Shown: positions 5,775 to 11,326 of the stretch, in pieces
Numbering within the stretch: position 1 is the first letter of the stretch
Layout: each line of letters starts with the position of its first letter
The notes under the pieces: model-generated
The model's database searches: none
Told to the model about the DNA's origin: nothing
The model's input: only the letters and a program-made list of their open reading frames with translations
Made by a program: the position numbers and the translations under genes
Source: Ensifer sesbaniae
GTDB taxonomy: Bacteria > Pseudomonadota > Alphaproteobacteria > Rhizobiales > Rhizobiaceae
NCBI RefSeq assembly: GCF_013283665.1
Contig: NZ_JABEKU010000001.1
Location: 1,240,001-1,304,000, forward strand
Direction: 5' to 3'
DNA: 64,000 bases

Positions 5775-6695
5775 GTGACAATGGGGCGTCGCACGAGAAA
5801 GCTGATTTCGGGTCTTGTGGTGCTGGGCGTTGTCGGCGGGGCAGCCCTCTGGTGGCTGACGAAGCCGGCGCCGCGGAGTGCCTCTCATTGGGAGGGGCTC
5901 GGCGAGCCTGATCTCGCCAATGGCGAACAGGTCTTCTGGGCCGGCGGCTGCGTGAGCTGTCATGCCAAGCCAGGCGCCGAAGGTGATGCCCGTCTCGTTC
6001 TCTCCGGCGGCGCGCCGCTGAAGAGCCCGTTCGGAACCTTCCATGCACCGAACATCTCGCCTGATGAGACCGCCGGGATCGGTGGGTGGACACTTGCCGA
6101 ATTCGGCAACGCCATGACCCGCGGGGTGGGGCGTAACGGCGAGCACCTCTATCCCTCGTTCCCCTACGGCTCCTATGCGCGCATGACGGCGAAGGACGTC
6201 AACGACCTCTGGGGCTTCATGAAAACCCTGCCGAAGAGCGCCGAGGTGGCGCCGCCGCACGACCTGCCGTTCCCCTACAACATGCGGATGGCGCTCGGTG
6301 GCTGGAAGCTGCTGTTCCTCACCGACAAGCCGCGCGTCCGCGTCGACGGCAGCGATCCGAAGCTCACGCGCGGCCAATATCTCGTCGAGGGGCCGGGCCA
6401 TTGCGGTGAATGTCATACGCCCCGAAATGCGCTTGGCGGCTTCGAGCCTGACCAGTGGCTTGCAGGTGCGCCGAACCCGGAAGGTAAGGGCCGCATCCCC
6501 AACATCACGCCCGGCTCCAAGAGCATCGGTAGCTGGAGCGCCTCGGACATCGCCTCCTATCTGGAAACCGGTTTCACCCCGGAATTCGATTCCGTCGGCG
6601 GCTCGATGGTTGAGGTGCAGAAGAACATGGCGAAGCTGACGCCGGCCGAGCGGGAGGCGATTGCAGCCTATCTCAAGGCGGTTCCGGCGCTCTGA
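5775..6695 (+). CDS. membrane-anchored diheme cytochrome c
   Basis: A 306-residue protein with an N-terminal anchor or signal (residues 9-27, followed by WWLTKPAP). Haem-binding motifs are CVSCH (Cys57, Cys60, His61) and CGECH (Cys208, Cys211, His212). The two-domain layout, with HAPNISPDETAGIGGWTLAEF and PNITPGSKSIGSWSASDI, is that of the small subunit of periplasmic alcohol or sugar dehydrogenases. It probably passes electrons from a periplasmic dehydrogenase to the respiratory chain. The partner is not in this neighbourhood; glucose dehydrogenase at 9-11 kb reduces quinone directly. Confidence 0.9.
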   Translation: MTMGRRTRKLISGLVVLGVVGGAALWWLTKPAPRSASHWEGLGEPDLANGEQVFWAGGCVSCHAKPGAEGDARLVLSGGAPLKSPFGTFHAPNISPDETAGIGGWTLAEFGNAMTRGVGRNGEHLYPSFPYGSYARMTAKDVNDLWGFMKTLPKSAEVAPPHDLPFPYNMRMALGGWKLLFLTDKPRVRVDGSDPKLTRGQYLVEGPGHCGECHTPRNALGGFEPDQWLAGAPNPEGKGRIPNITPGSKSIGSWSASDIASYLETGFTPEFDSVGGSMVEVQKNMAKLTPAEREAIAAYLKAVPAL

Positions 6696-6697
6696 CG

Positions 6698-6743
6698 CTA
6701 CAGCACCGCGCGTCTTGTCAGACACGCAAAGGTCGCTGTAGCA
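6698..6743. repeat. half RIME1 element
   Basis: CTACAGCACCGCGCGTCTTG and GTCAGACACGCAAAGGTCGC reproduce only the first palindrome of RIME1. The second palindrome is missing. It starts two bases after the cytochrome stop codon and may act as a transcript-end hairpin between convergent genes. Confidence 0.7.
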
Positions 6744-6937
6744 GGGCGCACTCAACTCCTTCTGCATGCTTCGCTTGATCGTCACCGATGGACGGGCAGA
6801 ACATGCAGGAATTCAAGGTGCTGCGGCGATTTTTGTGCGTGGAGAGGGCGTGCGTTGCTGGGGAGAATGGGAAGGTGACTGAAACCGTGCCCTACGACCA
6901 GTCCAGCCGCTCCGACCTGCGCCCCAGGTGGCGGTTC

Positions 6938-7525
6938 TCAGCCGACGCTGGCGCTTCCGTTCATCCGATGCTCGTGTCCGTAGAGTGCCAGAAAGCCGTC
7001 GAGCTCGGGTGAGCCAAGGCCGAGGCCGCGCAGGATCTCCGCGGCAAAGCTGATCGGCGCGGTTCCTGCGGCGGTGACGACATGGCCGCTGCGTAGCGCC
7101 CGCGGCTGATCGCGATAATGCGGCCTGCCGTGATAGCGGGGCAGCGCCGCAAGGCTTTCGGCGCTGTTGCCGGTGTGATCGATGCCGTTGAGAAGACCGC
7201 TTGCGGCGAGCGCGTTGACGCCGCCGCATATGGCCGCGACCACGCGCTTGTCGCGATCGAAAGCGCGGATCGTTGCTGAGAGATCAGGAGCCTCATTGGT
7301 CTCCCAGATCGACCCGCCGCAAATGACCAGCCCGTCAAAACCCGCAGGATCGAGCGAGTCGATCGACAGATGTGCCGAGACGTCGAGGCCACCCATCGAC
7401 GTCACGCGGGCACCGTCGGCGGTGGCAACGTCGATGTCTACGCCGAGATGGGTGCGCGCCGCCGCCATCAACAGCGCACATTCCCAATCGGCGAAGCCTT
7501 CACAGAGCACGATTGCAAGGCGCAT
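6938..7525 (-). CDS. DJ-1/PfpI family protein (glutamine amidotransferase-like)
   Basis: A 195-residue protein. The nucleophile-elbow Cys100 lies in AAICGGVNALA and the conserved acidic residue Glu15 in GFADWE. Members act as glyoxalases, chaperones or isonitrile hydratases; which applies here is unknown. I use the ATG at 7525 because GAGGATGG precedes it; an ATG at 7543 would overlap the upstream gene by eight bases. The gene starts 10 bases after the acetyltransferase, so both should respond to the attenuator at 8078-8217. Confidence 0.85.
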   Translation of the reverse strand: MRLAIVLCEGFADWECALLMAAARTHLGVDIDVATADGARVTSMGGLDVSAHLSIDSLDPAGFDGLVICGGSIWETNEAPDLSATIRAFDRDKRVVAAICGGVNALAASGLLNGIDHTGNSAESLAALPRYHGRPHYRDQPRALRSGHVVTAAGTAPISFAAEILRGLGLGSPELDGFLALYGHEHRMNGSASVG

Positions 7526-7535
7526 CGTTCCATCC

Positions 7536-8039
7536 TCATCCAAGCTTCTGCATATAGCGCATGCCGGTCACCGGACGAGGCACGAAGCGTTCGGATTCGT
7601 AGAAATGATGCGCCTGGAAATTGCCGGTGGCGGCGCTGACCGAAAGGAAGTCGCAACCGGCCATCTTCGCCTGCTCGCGCGCCTTGGCAACGAGGTGACG
7701 GCCGATGCCGGTGCCGCGGCTTTCAGGACGAACGAAGAGATGGTGCAGTTCCATGCCGCGTGCGCCCTCGGCAGCCCGGTAGATCGGCACCAGGATCGCG
7801 TAGCCGATCAGCCGGTTGCCGGCCTCGGCAACGAGTGCGGTGATCCAGGGCGTGCGGCCGAAGAGGTCGCGCTCGAGCTGTTCCGGCGTGATCGGCGCGG
7901 CGTCGCCATGGTGGGCGGCCAGCTCGGCGATCATCTCGCGCAGTTCCGGCAGGTCGCGCTGCTTGGCGCAGCGGATCGTGACCATCGGCGGCCGCGTCGA
8001 CGGGACAGGATGAAGTGTGGGGATGGCGGTCTGTAGCAT
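7536..8039 (-). CDS. GNAT family N-acetyltransferase behind an attenuator
   Basis: A 167-residue acetyltransferase. The acetyl-CoA loop is RPESRGTGIGRHLV at about residues 103-116, followed by NFQAHHFYESERFVP, typical of GNAT motif B. The start at 8039 has GAGGAG eight bases upstream; a second ATG at residue 19 has no ribosome binding site. The substrate is unknown. The leader encodes an aromatic-rich peptide ahead of a terminator, which suggests induction when charged aromatic tRNA is scarce and perhaps a role in aromatic amino acid metabolism. The DJ-1-like gene follows in the same transcript. Confidence 0.87.
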   Translation of the reverse strand: MLQTAIPTLHPVPSTRPPMVTIRCAKQRDLPELREMIAELAAHHGDAAPITPEQLERDLFGRTPWITALVAEAGNRLIGYAILVPIYRAAEGARGMELHHLFVRPESRGTGIGRHLVAKAREQAKMAGCDFLSVSAATGNFQAHHFYESERFVPRPVTGMRYMQKLG

Positions 8040-8077
8040 GTCTCGGCTCCTCGGGTTCTCTCGCCATCAGGAGCCGG

Positions 8078-8103
8078 AAAAACAAAAGCCGCCTGATGGC
8101 GGC
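8078..8103 (-). terminator. attenuator terminator before the acetyltransferase
   Basis: On the minus strand GCCGCC-ATCA-GGCGGC is followed by TTTTGTTTTT, a canonical intrinsic terminator placed before the gene rather than after it. Its 5' arm overlaps bases 8099-8105, which are exactly complementary over seven bases to 8123-8129. That gives a mutually exclusive antiterminator. Confidence 0.8.
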
Positions 8104-8131
8104 CTTGTTGAATGTGATCAGCAGGCCGCTC

Positions 8132-8182
8132 CTATCGGAACAGCCAAAAATACACGCGGCAAATGGGTGCGTTCTTGATCAT
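8132..8182 (-). CDS. aromatic leader peptide, 16 residues
   Basis: The open frame reads MIKNAPICRVYFWLFR and a TAG stop. Four of the last six residues are aromatic (Tyr, Phe, Trp, Phe). The promoter at 8189-8217 places the transcription start about on the A of this ATG, so the mRNA would be leaderless, as described for the rhizobial trp leader. The stop lies three bases before the antiterminator strand (8123-8129). A ribosome that finishes the peptide would block it and allow termination; one stalled at the aromatic codons would not. Confidence 0.72.
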   Translation of the reverse strand: MIKNAPICRVYFWLFR

Positions 8183-8188
8183 GGGCGC

Positions 8189-8217
8189 TAGATTGTTCGT
8201 TTTCGCAATTTTGTCAA
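8189..8217 (-). promoter_or_regulatory. sigma-70 type promoter of the attenuated operon
   Basis: On the minus strand TTGACA (8217-8212) is separated by 17 bases from AATCTA (8194-8189). The predicted transcription start is about seven bases further on, at the leader ATG (8182). This is the best sigma-70 match I noted in the window. Confidence 0.65.
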
Positions 8218-8254
8218 CGGGGATTTTTCGCGCAGTCGATTATCCGCTGCGATC

Positions 8255-8668
8255 TCAGTGTTCGCTCTCGCACATGGAGTGGTCAGCCAAAGCCCGGATC
8301 ACATAGCAGTCACCCACCGTGTGATTGCCGTCGCAGGCGACGATGCGTTCCAGCTCCTGCTCCAGCTTCTTCAACCGGGCGATCTTCTCGCGAACGGTCG
8401 CCAGATGTTCGCTTGCGATCCGGTCGGCTTCGCCGCACGGGCGTTCCGGGTGCTGGCTGAGGGCGAGCAGATCCCGGATCGAATCGATCGACAGACCGAG
8501 ATCGCGCGCGTGGCGGATGAAGGCCAGTCGCTCGAGTTCGCTTTTCTCGTAGCGCCGCTGGTTGCCTTCGGAACGCTCGGGCGCCGCGATCAGCCCCATC
8601 TGCTCGTAATAGCGAATGGTCGGAATTTTCACGCCGGTGCGCCGCGAGAGTTCGCCGATGGAGTACAT
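8255..8668 (-). CDS. MerR family metal-responsive regulator
   Basis: A 137-residue regulator. The MerR winged helix (MYSIGELSRRTGVKIPTIRY...RRYEKSELERLAFI) is followed by a long dimer helix and a cysteine-bearing C-terminus. PCGEAD and the CDGNHTVGDCYVIRAL loop resemble the metal-binding loop of the ZntR/CadR/PbrR group. A divalent metal is therefore the likely signal; this is inference. I start at 8668, where the family N-terminus begins; the frame is open further upstream. No metal-efflux gene is adjacent, so it may act at a distance. Confidence 0.85.
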   Translation of the reverse strand: MYSIGELSRRTGVKIPTIRYYEQMGLIAAPERSEGNQRRYEKSELERLAFIRHARDLGLSIDSIRDLLALSQHPERPCGEADRIASEHLATVREKIARLKKLEQELERIVACDGNHTVGDCYVIRALADHSMCESEH

Positions 8669-8681
8669 GGTTGCCTCAAAC

Positions 8682-8702
8682 CTATAGCTTCTGGAGCAAT
8701 AG
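8682..8702. promoter_or_regulatory. MerR-type operator in front of merR
   Basis: CTATAGCT-TCTGG-AGCAATAG is an inverted repeat with eight-base arms (seven matching) and a five-base centre. It lies 14 bases upstream of the merR start, the layout usual for autoregulated MerR genes. Confidence 0.5.
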
Positions 8703-8723
8703 ATAGTTGCGCGCTGTTGGGTG

Positions 8724-8888
8724 TCAATGGCGGGGGCGAGGGAAGAACTCGTATGGGACCTTCGTTGCGATTGTCGGGGCAAGCCGCGGGCGCGCGTTGG
8801 TGCCGGTCTCTTCGATCGGCGAAACCGTACCCATCTGCTGGCGGCGCTCGGAGACGTAGTAGCTCGAGATGCAGTTGTCGATCTTCAT
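8724..8888 (-). CDS. 54-residue small protein, unrecognised
   Basis: The ATG at 8888 opens a 54-codon frame starting MKIDNCISSYYVSERRQQMG and ending PRPRH. Third codon positions are strongly G/C-biased, as in the real genes around it. A purine run (GGGGGA) stands six bases before the ATG. It forms the 3' arm of a perfect eight-base stem (8895-8902 with 8911-8918), so translation could be gated by RNA structure. The gene lies between glucose dehydrogenase and merR on the same strand. I do not recognise it. Confidence 0.5.
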   Translation of the reverse strand: MKIDNCISSYYVSERRQQMGTVSPIEETGTNARPRLAPTIATKVPYEFFPRPRH

Positions 8889-8992
8889 CGGAATCCCCCG
8901 GAATCTGTCGTCCGGGGGACGCTGCTTTTGCGGGCTTGCGTGGTGCTTGCTCCTGCAACCTTCTAGCGAGAATTAGGGATGCTTCTCGCGCA

Positions 8993-11326
8993 TCAGGGCA
9001 GGGTGTAGGCGATGATGTAATCACCCGGCCTGGTGCCGACCGAACCGTGGCCTCCGGCGACGATCAGCACATATTGCTTGTCGCCGACCGCATAGCTCAT
9101 CGGTGTCGACTGGCCGCCGGCGGGCAGGCGTGCCTCCCAGAGCTGGCGGCCGGTCGTCAGGTCGTAGGCGCGCAGATAATCGTCGACCGCAGCACCCAGG
9201 AAGGCGACGCCGCCCTTGGTGATCATCGGTCCGCCGATGCCCGGCACGCCCACCTTGAACGGCAACGGCAGCGGCGTCATGTCTTCGACGGTGCCGTTCT
9301 TGTGCTTGTAGGCAATCTTTCCGGTTCGAAGATCCGCGCCGGCGACATAACCCCATGGCGGCGCCTGGCAGGGAATGCCGAGCGGTCCGAGGAAGGGACC
9401 CATGAAGACGCCATAGGGCGCGCCTTCGTTGCGGTTGAGGCCTTGTTCCGACCCTTTCTCGTCCTGTCCCCTTGGCGGAATCTGATCACGAGGCACGAGA
9501 CGCGAGGTGAAGGCGAGGTAGGTCGGCATGCCGAACATCACCTGCCGTTCCGGATCGACGGCGACGGAGCCCCAATTGAAGGTGCCGAAGTTGCCGGGGT
9601 AGACGAGCGTCCCCTCGATCGACGGCGGCGTGTAGCGCCCCTCGTATTTCAGCGACCGGAACGCGATGCGGCAGGCCAGCTGGTCGAAGAGCGTGATGCC
9701 CCACATGTCCTTCTCCTGCAGCGGCGCAGGCATGAAGGTGAGGCCAGAGACCGGCTGGCTCGGCGCGCTGAAATCCTCGGGGATCGCTCCGCCCGGGGCC
9801 TGAACCTCTTCGACCGGGATGATCGGCTCGCCGTTTCTGCGGTCGAGCACGTAGATATCGCCCTGTTTCGTCGGTCCGACCAGCGCCGGGACCACCGTGC
9901 CGTCGTCCTTGGTGATGTCGAGCAGGGCCGGTTGCGCCGGCACGTCCATGTCCCAGAGGTCGTGATGCACGGTCTGGCGGACCCAGCGCACCGCGCCGGA
10001 GTTGATGTCGAGCGCGACGATCGAGGACGAATATTTCTCGACGTGCTCGCTTCGACCCATGCCGAGCTGGTCCGGCACCTGGTTGCCCATGGGGATGTAG
10101 ACCATGCCGAGCGCCTCGTCATAGCTGAACACCGACCAGCTGTTCGGCGAGTTGGTCGTGTAGGTCTGGCCTTCGGGAAGGGGCGTCGTCACGTCCGGGT
10201 TGCCGCTGTCCCAATTCCAGATCAGCGCGCCCGTGTTGATGTCGAAGGCACGGATCACGCCGGATTGTTCCTGGGTCGAATAGTTGTCGTTGACGGCGCC
10301 GCCGATGATGAGCTTGCCGGCCACTGCCACCGGCGGTGACGTCGAATAGTAGTAGCCGGCCGGATTGTACTTCATGCCCGTTTCGAGCCCCAGCACGCCG
10401 TTGTCGGCAAAGCTGGTGCAGACGGAGCCGGTCGCCGCGTCGAGCGCGATCAGGCGCGCATCGGAGGTCGGCAGGTAGACCCGCTCGGCGCAGGGGCTGC
10501 CGGGAGCTGCGGCCGGGTCGGCCCAATAGGTGACACCGCGGCAGGTCTGATGCTGGCGGTCGGGGTTCATGCCCGAGTTGGAATCATATTTCCATTTCTC
10601 CTCACCGGTCGCCGCATCGAGCGCGATCGCCCAATTGTGCGGCGTGCAGGCATAGAGCGTGTCTTTCACCTTGAGCGGCGTGACCTGATAGGTCGTCTCT
10701 CCGACGTCGTCGGGCCGTTTGACGTCGCCGGTCTGGTACTGCCAGGCAAGCTTGAGAGTGCCGACATTGTCCGGCGTTATCTGGTTGAGCGGCGAGTACC
10801 TTTGACCGAACGGCGTCCGCCCGTACTGGTGCCATTCGGCCGGAGGCACCGAGCCTCCGAGCGGCGGATTGGCGGCAACGACATCGCTTGGCAGATCTCC
10901 GCGAATGTCGTGCGGGTCCTGCGTCAGGGCATAGCCGGCCACGCCGATCGAGATCAGCACGGCGATCGCCAGCGGCCAGGCGCTCACCGCGTAACGCTCG
11001 CCCGTTGGGCTCTCGAAACCAAGTGGACGACGGACGGACGGCAGCAGCAGCCAGAGCCCCAGAAGCACGATGACACCACCGCGCGGGCCGAGTTGCCACC
11101 AGTCGAAGCCGACCTCGGAGACCGCCCAGCCGAGCGATCCGAGAACGATGAACGCATAGAGCCAGATCGCCGCCGATTTCCGCATGAATATGAGCACGGC
11201 CGTCAGCAGGAAGCCGATACCGACGACGAGGTAGTAGGGGCTGCCGCCGAGCATCAGCAGCTTGGCTCCGCCACCGCCGAGCACGAGGCCAATGAGAGCG
11301 AAGACGATGGCCGTCAGGATGAGCAT
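8993..11326 (-). CDS. gcd: membrane-bound PQQ-dependent glucose dehydrogenase
   Basis: A 777-residue quinoprotein that oxidises glucose (or other aldoses) to gluconolactone in the periplasm and passes electrons to ubiquinone. Five transmembrane helices occupy about residues 1-135. The eight-bladed propeller follows, with repeated W-motifs (ALDAATGEEKWKY, AFDINTGALIWNW, ALDINSGAVRWVR, AYDLTTGRQLWEA). The DLWDMDVPAQP motif carries the catalytic Asp (Asp466 in E. coli). Length is close to the E. coli enzyme (796). PQQ synthesis genes are not in the window. Gluconate made this way can solubilise mineral phosphate. A RIME1 element lies 160 bases upstream. Confidence 0.95.
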   Translation of the reverse strand: MLILTAIVFALIGLVLGGGGAKLLMLGGSPYYLVVGIGFLLTAVLIFMRKSAAIWLYAFIVLGSLGWAVSEVGFDWWQLGPRGGVIVLLGLWLLLPSVRRPLGFESPTGERYAVSAWPLAIAVLISIGVAGYALTQDPHDIRGDLPSDVVAANPPLGGSVPPAEWHQYGRTPFGQRYSPLNQITPDNVGTLKLAWQYQTGDVKRPDDVGETTYQVTPLKVKDTLYACTPHNWAIALDAATGEEKWKYDSNSGMNPDRQHQTCRGVTYWADPAAAPGSPCAERVYLPTSDARLIALDAATGSVCTSFADNGVLGLETGMKYNPAGYYYSTSPPVAVAGKLIIGGAVNDNYSTQEQSGVIRAFDINTGALIWNWDSGNPDVTTPLPEGQTYTTNSPNSWSVFSYDEALGMVYIPMGNQVPDQLGMGRSEHVEKYSSSIVALDINSGAVRWVRQTVHHDLWDMDVPAQPALLDITKDDGTVVPALVGPTKQGDIYVLDRRNGEPIIPVEEVQAPGGAIPEDFSAPSQPVSGLTFMPAPLQEKDMWGITLFDQLACRIAFRSLKYEGRYTPPSIEGTLVYPGNFGTFNWGSVAVDPERQVMFGMPTYLAFTSRLVPRDQIPPRGQDEKGSEQGLNRNEGAPYGVFMGPFLGPLGIPCQAPPWGYVAGADLRTGKIAYKHKNGTVEDMTPLPLPFKVGVPGIGGPMITKGGVAFLGAAVDDYLRAYDLTTGRQLWEARLPAGGQSTPMSYAVGDKQYVLIVAGGHGSVGTRPGDYIIAYTLP

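Follow-up and report, generated by a model that had tools for sequence, protein, structure and literature searches.

The window analysed here is a 64,000 nt stretch of the Ensifer sesbaniae contig NZ_JABEKU010000001.1 (1,240,001-1,304,000), within which all positions given below are counted. On its minus strand lies a gene for a GNAT acetyltransferase, followed by a DJ-1/PfpI gene and preceded by a short leader with its own promoter, open reading frame and terminator (Table 1). By sequence and fold similarity the acetyltransferase is of the SSAT/SSAT2 type, a likeness that does not by itself give the substrate; NCBIfam gave nothing above cut-off for this protein, and a PADLOC search returned no matches. 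Separately, in the interval that parts the MerR gene from the PQQ dehydrogenase gene, the plus strand has a strong GC hairpin at 8894-8921 with T-rich sequence after it.

Table 1. Features of the leader and of the genes that follow it (window positions)
Feature	Position	Strand	Detail	Basis
Promoter	8189..8217	-	TTGACA 8217-8212, 17-nt spacer, AATCTA 8194-8189	sequence
Leader ORF MIKNAPICRVYFWLFR	8132..8182	-	16 codons and stop	sequence and relatives
Proposed sensor Tyr codon UAU	8150..8152	-	sixth codon before stop	conservation
Segment 1 GGCUGUUCC	8137..8145	-	pairs with segment 2	fold and swap control
Segment 2 GGAGCGGCCU	8123..8132	-	partner of 1 or 3	fold and swap control
Segment 3 AAGGCCGCC	8098..8106	-	terminator 5' arm	terminator scan, alignment
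Segment 4	8085..8093	-	terminator 3' arm	terminator scan
Terminator U tract	8078..8087	-	overlaps end of segment 4	sequence
Segment 5 CCUGAUGGCG	8062..8071	-	complementary to 8101-8092 (arm 3 end, loop, arm 4 start)	
Anti-Shine-Dalgarno strand CGGCUCCU	8069..8076	-	overlaps segment 5 at 8071-8069	
Segment 6 AGGAGCCG	8044..8051	-	Shine-Dalgarno region of GNAT gene; pairs with 8076-8069	
GNAT acetyltransferase	7536..8039	-	closest solved folds SSAT2/SSAT (diamine and thialysine acetyltransferases)	
DJ-1/PfpI gene	6938..7525	-	10 nt 3' of GNAT	

Architecture and conservation of the leader

A first-pass annotation, made from the letters of the window, had described a transcription attenuator at this place, and most of its parts proved to be as it had drawn them. 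The TTGACA-N17-AATCTA promoter was found where it had been placed; the 16-codon frame at 8182-8132 is conserved and begins with an ATG on the predicted +1 (8182, seven bases past the -10 box), that is, without an untranslated leader; a terminator hairpin (8106-8085) precedes the acetyltransferase gene; and the seven-base antiterminator, 8129-8123 with 8105-8099, is perfect and outperforms a swap control. A strict promoter scan of 6500-9800 called no promoter. Among relatives, TTGAC is retained 34-44 nt 5' of the leader ATG in 102 of 104 GNAT leaders, the exceptions being L067 and L121. Taken by themselves the scans of the window are weak: the terminator scan found four hairpins against 2.4 in shuffles (sd 1.6), which is within the shuffled range. 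The 103-nt leader RNA does fold 4 sd better than shuffles (z -4.0). It is because the arrangement is conserved that the attenuator is accepted as real, and comparison of sequences supports leaderless, apparently ribosome-mediated attenuation ahead of the GNAT gene.

With the GNAT protein as query, a scan of species genomes yielded 69 loci from Rhizobiaceae and Rhodobacterales, and a short ORF with a tyrosine core precedes the GNAT gene in all 69 (67 found automatically, L059 cut by a contig end and L069 read by eye). The controlled genes had been given in the annotation as the acetyltransferase together with the DJ-1/PfpI gene; the first keeps its place under the leader throughout, whereas the second accompanies it in just 45/69 loci and was rejected as a constant partner of the unit. 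Searches at other taxonomic depths recovered GNAT in 16/16 genomes of the genus (a count of gene presence only), in 4/249 of the order with the leader in 4/4, in 12/385 of the class with the leader in 3/12, and in 25/248 Rhodobacteraceae genomes with the leader in 17/25, none being found at the other eight matches. In a tree of 48 GNATs, whose bootstrap had not converged completely and from which L123 was left out as too short, a supported clade of 38 contains all 31 leader-bearing rows and 7 rows without a leader, and 0/10 rows outside that clade carry one. This confinement suggests that the leader was probably ancestral to the clade and has been lost at times.

Three pairings within the leader are supported, namely 1:2 (8145-8137 / 8132-8124), 2:3 (8129-8123 / 8105-8099) and the terminator hairpin itself, 3:4. 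In swap controls the native 1:2 pairing was reached by 20/5000 permutations and the native 2:3 pairing by 4/5000, these permutations, like those used for 4:5 and 5:6 below, leaving shared ancestry in place. The third structure of the first-pass annotation, a pairing of 8160-8156 with 8125-8129, can be drawn in the window; with GCCGC at that place in only 19/67 leaders it was discarded as the competitor in favour of 8145-8137 / 8132-8124. For Rhizobiaceae alone, RNAalifold recorded double changes in 1/11 pairs, as the terminator core is invariant in this family. In the window and in the Rhizobiaceae alignment alike, an intrinsic terminator stands ahead of the first structural gene. Seven of the 12 Rhodobacterales leaders examined (L068, L069, L083, L105, L108, L122 and L124) have the hairpin and lack the U tract, and leaders of this form may work on translation only.

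To model occupancy, a ribosome was set on the codons of 20 leaders one after another, kinetics lying outside the model. In 19/20 leaders segment 2 captured segment 3 to at least 0.64 when the ribosome sat at Tyr, and in 18/20 this capture was no higher than 0.36 when it sat at the stop codon. Together with the fold and the swap controls, this gives mutually exclusive 1:2, 2:3 and 3:4 pairings with a control codon at which the ribosome uncovers segment 2; the exception is L124, which behaves oppositely. The tyrosine position is not unique in the model, capture being high at many upstream codons also, and without a ribosome capture reached at least 0.5 in 13/20 leaders, including all 8 from Rhizobiaceae. 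As a separate feature of the fold, UGAUCA in the start region (8181-8176) is able to pair with UGAUCA at 8120-8115, between segments 2 and 3; the pairing is mostly retained in relatives and may mask the leader start codon.

The amino acid read by the leader

The 105 GNAT leaders encode 65 distinct peptides (L059 is truncated, and L123 came later and stands outside the count), which are the safer basis for counting because two of the loci may in some cases belong to a single species. Tyrosine is found in 65/65 of them, and in 61 it is exactly the sixth residue counted from the C-terminus; the peptides with Tyr elsewhere are MATSFYWTRSHTLRAVARV, MIMLKTNFMTYRCRLIRAR, MINALKIARY and MTQCAAMTVTYRAFA. 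Phe follows the tyrosine in 50 of the 61 and Trp comes next in 39, and the L123 leader, MTTHSRSNFYYYPRSS, likewise has its Tyr in the sixth place from the end, with Trp absent. The conserved ORF thus appears, on peptide composition, to hold control codons for one amino acid.

In the first-pass annotation the attenuator had been assigned to aromatic amino acids in general, so that shortage of Phe, Tyr or Trp would release it, and an alignment of the three kinds of codon in relatives had been suggested as a check. Most Rhizobiaceae leaders do read YFW, and in the ribosome model a stall on the Phe or Trp codons likewise leaves segment 2 free; yet Trp is absent from 15/65 and Phe from 5/65 distinct peptides, Tyr is never absent, and the leaders of tyrS2, described below, have YY with no Phe or Trp. 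The attenuator stands, the alignment bears out tyrosine and drops the other two, and general aromatic sensing, which we regard as improbable, was rejected on this composition, Tyr alone being universal.

The codon at the sensor place is UAU in 67/67 leaders of the L002-L070 set and in 54/56 of a mixed set that overlaps it; background tyrosine codons in nine genes of the window stand at 45 UAU to 39 UAC. The near-invariance of UAU over UAC, at 8152-8150 and in relatives, is an observation in its own right, and it may be linked to wobble decoding or to the queuosine modification that tRNA-Tyr can carry. Most GNAT leaders hold a single Tyr codon at this place, which is few for an attenuator and counts against one.

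Leaders may also act as arrest peptides, the type to which the erm and tna leaders belong, in which case a ligand or drug would stall the ribosome through the nascent chain. Near-constancy of the leader peptide within Ensifer would suit such a device, as would the fact that acetyltransferases are often drug-resistance genes; across families, however, only Tyr is constant, the residues that would lie within the exit tunnel vary, and the occurrence of the same RNA before tyrS2 points to the codon. As none of the residues before Tyr is constant across families in the 65 distinct peptides, arrest was rejected, and we hold it to be highly improbable. The signal sensed is instead most likely the charging of tRNA-Tyr, because tyrosine is universal in the peptides and the same RNA precedes tyrS2.

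A second target and a catalogued RNA

A covariance model, R1, was built from 17 Rhizobiaceae leaders and run on 247 Rhizobiaceae genomes. Counting E<=1.4e-8 only, and among the matches listed, it gave 57 matches, of which 54 lie before GNAT, 2 before tyrS and 1 before neither (an orphan); the tyrosyl-tRNA synthetase was identified by TIGR00234, run on one of the two tyrS loci. A second tyrS (tyrS2) is present in 8/16 genomes of the genus (L192-L199) and has the leader in 8/8, the peptides ending YYATSP or YYAASP with Tyr again sixth from the end. The encoded enzyme shares 52-59% identity with the housekeeping TyrRS and has HVGH in place of its HAGG; in G350 (L199) the reading frame is seemingly broken. 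The orphan leader, MINTALIAAIYYATSP, belongs to the E. sesbaniae genome itself (L156 1018-1130; G000:C1:2250917-2251029) and has neither GNAT nor tyrS after it. Judging from coordinates, tyrS2 has probably been lost from this genome, since the orphan lies ~196 kb from the housekeeping tyrS, much as tyrS2 in G154 lies 194 kb from its own.

Housekeeping tyrS was rejected as a further target of the leader. Two tyrS genes occur only in G071 among 111 Rhizobiaceae genomes; Rhodobacteraceae have one tyrS in 118/120 genomes and none in 2, and no leader of this type was found at the 30 Rhodobacteraceae tyrS loci examined. At the housekeeping tyrS loci fetched, R1 gave no match at E<0.001, and a leader of this type was found at 0/75 tyrS loci other than tyrS2 (L176-L191, L200-L258). 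Eight of those 75 have a short ORF with Tyr near its end, in L177, L222 and L253, for example, sixth from the end, and none has TTGAC at the usual place. With the same RNA standing before tyrS2 in sister strains, the best explanation of the pattern is that GNAT and tyrS2 form one predicted Tyr-charging regulon.

We therefore consider it likely, at a probability of roughly 0.85, that the leader works by ribosome-mediated attenuation and senses the charging of tRNA-Tyr, with a regulon of GNAT and tyrS2 and a possible translational step. The ORF, the Tyr codon and its distance, the promoter, the terminator, the pairings and the link to tyrS2 come from comparison; stalling on tyrosine shortage and the read-through that follows are what we infer from them. 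The first base transcribed would be the A of the leader's own start codon. Where tyrosyl-tRNA is plentiful the ribosome would reach the stop and cover segment 2, or depart and let 1:2 form, whereupon the 3:4 terminator would form and an RNA of ~105 nt would be released. Where charged tRNA-Tyr is scarce the ribosome would pause at the UAU six codons before the stop, covering segment 1 and not segment 2, so that 2:3 could form and RNA polymerase would read into the GNAT gene; the auxiliary tyrosyl-tRNA synthetase of sister strains would be governed by this RNA too.

The short terminated RNA that this mechanism predicts has probably been catalogued already. In S. meliloti the leader measures about 105 nt to the end of its U tract. 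According to Table 1 of PMC2573895, sm145 lies between SMc00108 and SMc00109 of S. meliloti 2011 on the same strand, and passages of that paper give an expected length of 100-120 nt, Northern bands of ~120 and ~110 nt, and a rise of more than sixfold in salt and of over twofold with SDS or ethanol and on a shift from 28 to 37 C, with apparently lower levels in saturated cultures. Passages in other papers equate Sm145 with SmelC222 (PMC2873474) and describe SMc00108 as a putative acetyltransferase (PMC3511301) and SMc00109 as a probable transcriptional regulator (PMC4941405); this gene order agrees with the S. meliloti locus L023. The terminated leader RNA is accordingly taken to be, probably, Sm145, matched by gene names and place rather than by published sequence, which would give a candidate function to an RNA catalogued in 2008 as an sRNA. 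Salt, SDS or ethanol, and heat are not an evident tyrosine signal, and this counts against the tyrosine reading. The passages on Sm145/SmelC222 available from these papers never name an attenuator or a leader peptide, and a literature search with subscription papers mostly, and supplements, outside its scope gave no description that we recognised of this leader peptide or of a tyrosine attenuator of this gene.

Should Sm145 be what its cataloguing as an sRNA gene implies (passages of PMC2573895 and PMC2873474), it would be a stand-alone, trans-acting RNA that merely happens to lie upstream of the acetyltransferase gene, and trans action is reported for rnTrpL. Against this, the strong R1 matches keep to the two genes (54/57 before GNAT, 2 before tyrS2) and the pairings reach into the GNAT Shine-Dalgarno region, and we judge an independent sRNA very unlikely. 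Trans action in addition to attenuation, which the first-pass annotation had suggested for the released RNA and peptide, is another matter, and the leader may be capable of it.

Pairings past the terminator and possible function

Two further pairings, absent from the first-pass annotation, extend past the terminator, one with the terminator loop and the other with the acetyltransferase Shine-Dalgarno site. Loop and segment 5 change together between families (ATCA/TGAT, GTCA/TGAC, TTCG/CGAA, CGAG/CTCG, GCAAG/CTTGT), and the complementarity of segment 5 is individually significant at p<=0.02 in 17/25 leaders, many of them close relatives. In the 4:5 swap test, on 33 distinct terminator cores out of 60 leaders, the native score of 662 compares with 478 +/- 18.7 for reshuffled partners and 0/2000 reach native; only 7/33 cores have their native partner in first place, alone or tied, and in cores L082, L122, L163, L168 and L160 it is no better than swapped ones. 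The Shine-Dalgarno pairing attains p<=0.05 individually in 5/25 leaders, its anti-Shine-Dalgarno strand overlaps segment 5 in 13/25, and the 5:6 swap test (20 representatives) gives 325 for native against 254.5 +/- 12.5, with 0/5000 reaching it.

Segment 5 would have as its partner either the terminator loop and arms or the GNAT Shine-Dalgarno strand, and from this choice we infer a translational step and its direction. The OFF chain would consist of 1:2, 3:4 and 5:6, the ON chain of 2:3 and 4:5 with the Shine-Dalgarno site free, and on this scheme translation of the acetyltransferase may be switched too. The step remains a proposal because equilibrium folding leaves the Shine-Dalgarno site open in the proposed ON state in 6/25 leaders, none of them Ensifer. 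Should these pairings function in the way proposed, a single ribosome on the leader would govern the downstream gene at the levels of transcription and translation alike.

Attenuation itself is of a known kind; what is unusual here, as far as comparison of sequences goes, is the target and the possible extension into translation. The enterobacterial trp and phe operons have segments 1-4, mutually exclusive pairings and control codons just before segment 1, as here, whereas the present leader has one control codon, for Tyr, a target outside amino-acid biosynthesis, and segments 5 and 6 in addition. Bacillus tyrZ and tyrS are also under control by tRNA-Tyr charging, through a T-box, whereas here the ribosome is the proposed sensor; Rfam gave 0 matches in the window at gathering score, the T-box covariance model included, by which a T-box was ruled out for the window. 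Vecchione and Sello are said to have described, in 2010, how ribosome-mediated attenuation controls an auxiliary, indolmycin-resistant TrpRS in Streptomyces, likewise a spare synthetase whose induction depends on the uncharged form of its own tRNA; the present case differs in reading Tyr for Trp, in occurring in unrelated bacteria and in a control common with an acetyltransferase. Closest in form, in the passages available, is S. meliloti trpL (rnTrpL/peTrpL) of trpE(G), with a leaderless ORF at +1, ribosome-mediated choice of terminator and a short terminated RNA (PMC10117765, PMC7298713), as against which the leader described here has a single Tyr codon, targets that are an acetyltransferase and an auxiliary TyrRS, and further pairings that reach the Shine-Dalgarno site. 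What emerges is a conserved and testable candidate for a tyrosine-specific attenuator in alphaproteobacteria, tying an acetyltransferase family without an assigned role to tRNA-Tyr charging.

Control common with an auxiliary TyrRS allows a concrete guess about the acetyltransferase, and it is because GNAT and the spare TyrRS share this control that we favour a role for GNAT when TyrRS is inhibited or tyrosine is short. In both the HIT and the GNAT families, enzymes are known that disarm aminoacyl-nucleotide antibiotics. A HIT-domain (HinT-like) gene lies directly after GNAT in L109, L117 and L118, all Rhodobacteraceae (3 of 124 loci scanned; Pfam on L109 and L118), an adjacency that is a hint and no more. 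Tentatively, and with more doubt than belief, the whole switch may be pictured as a defence against TyrRS poisons, in which one UAU senses the loss of charging, GNAT inactivates the poison, a spare TyrRS of different build takes part where present, and the RNA, through its six segments, links antitermination with release of the Shine-Dalgarno site. GNAT might then, for example, N-acetylate a tyrosyl-nucleotide or a tyrosine analogue, and, were the picture true, transcription and translation of the defence would both follow one ribosome.
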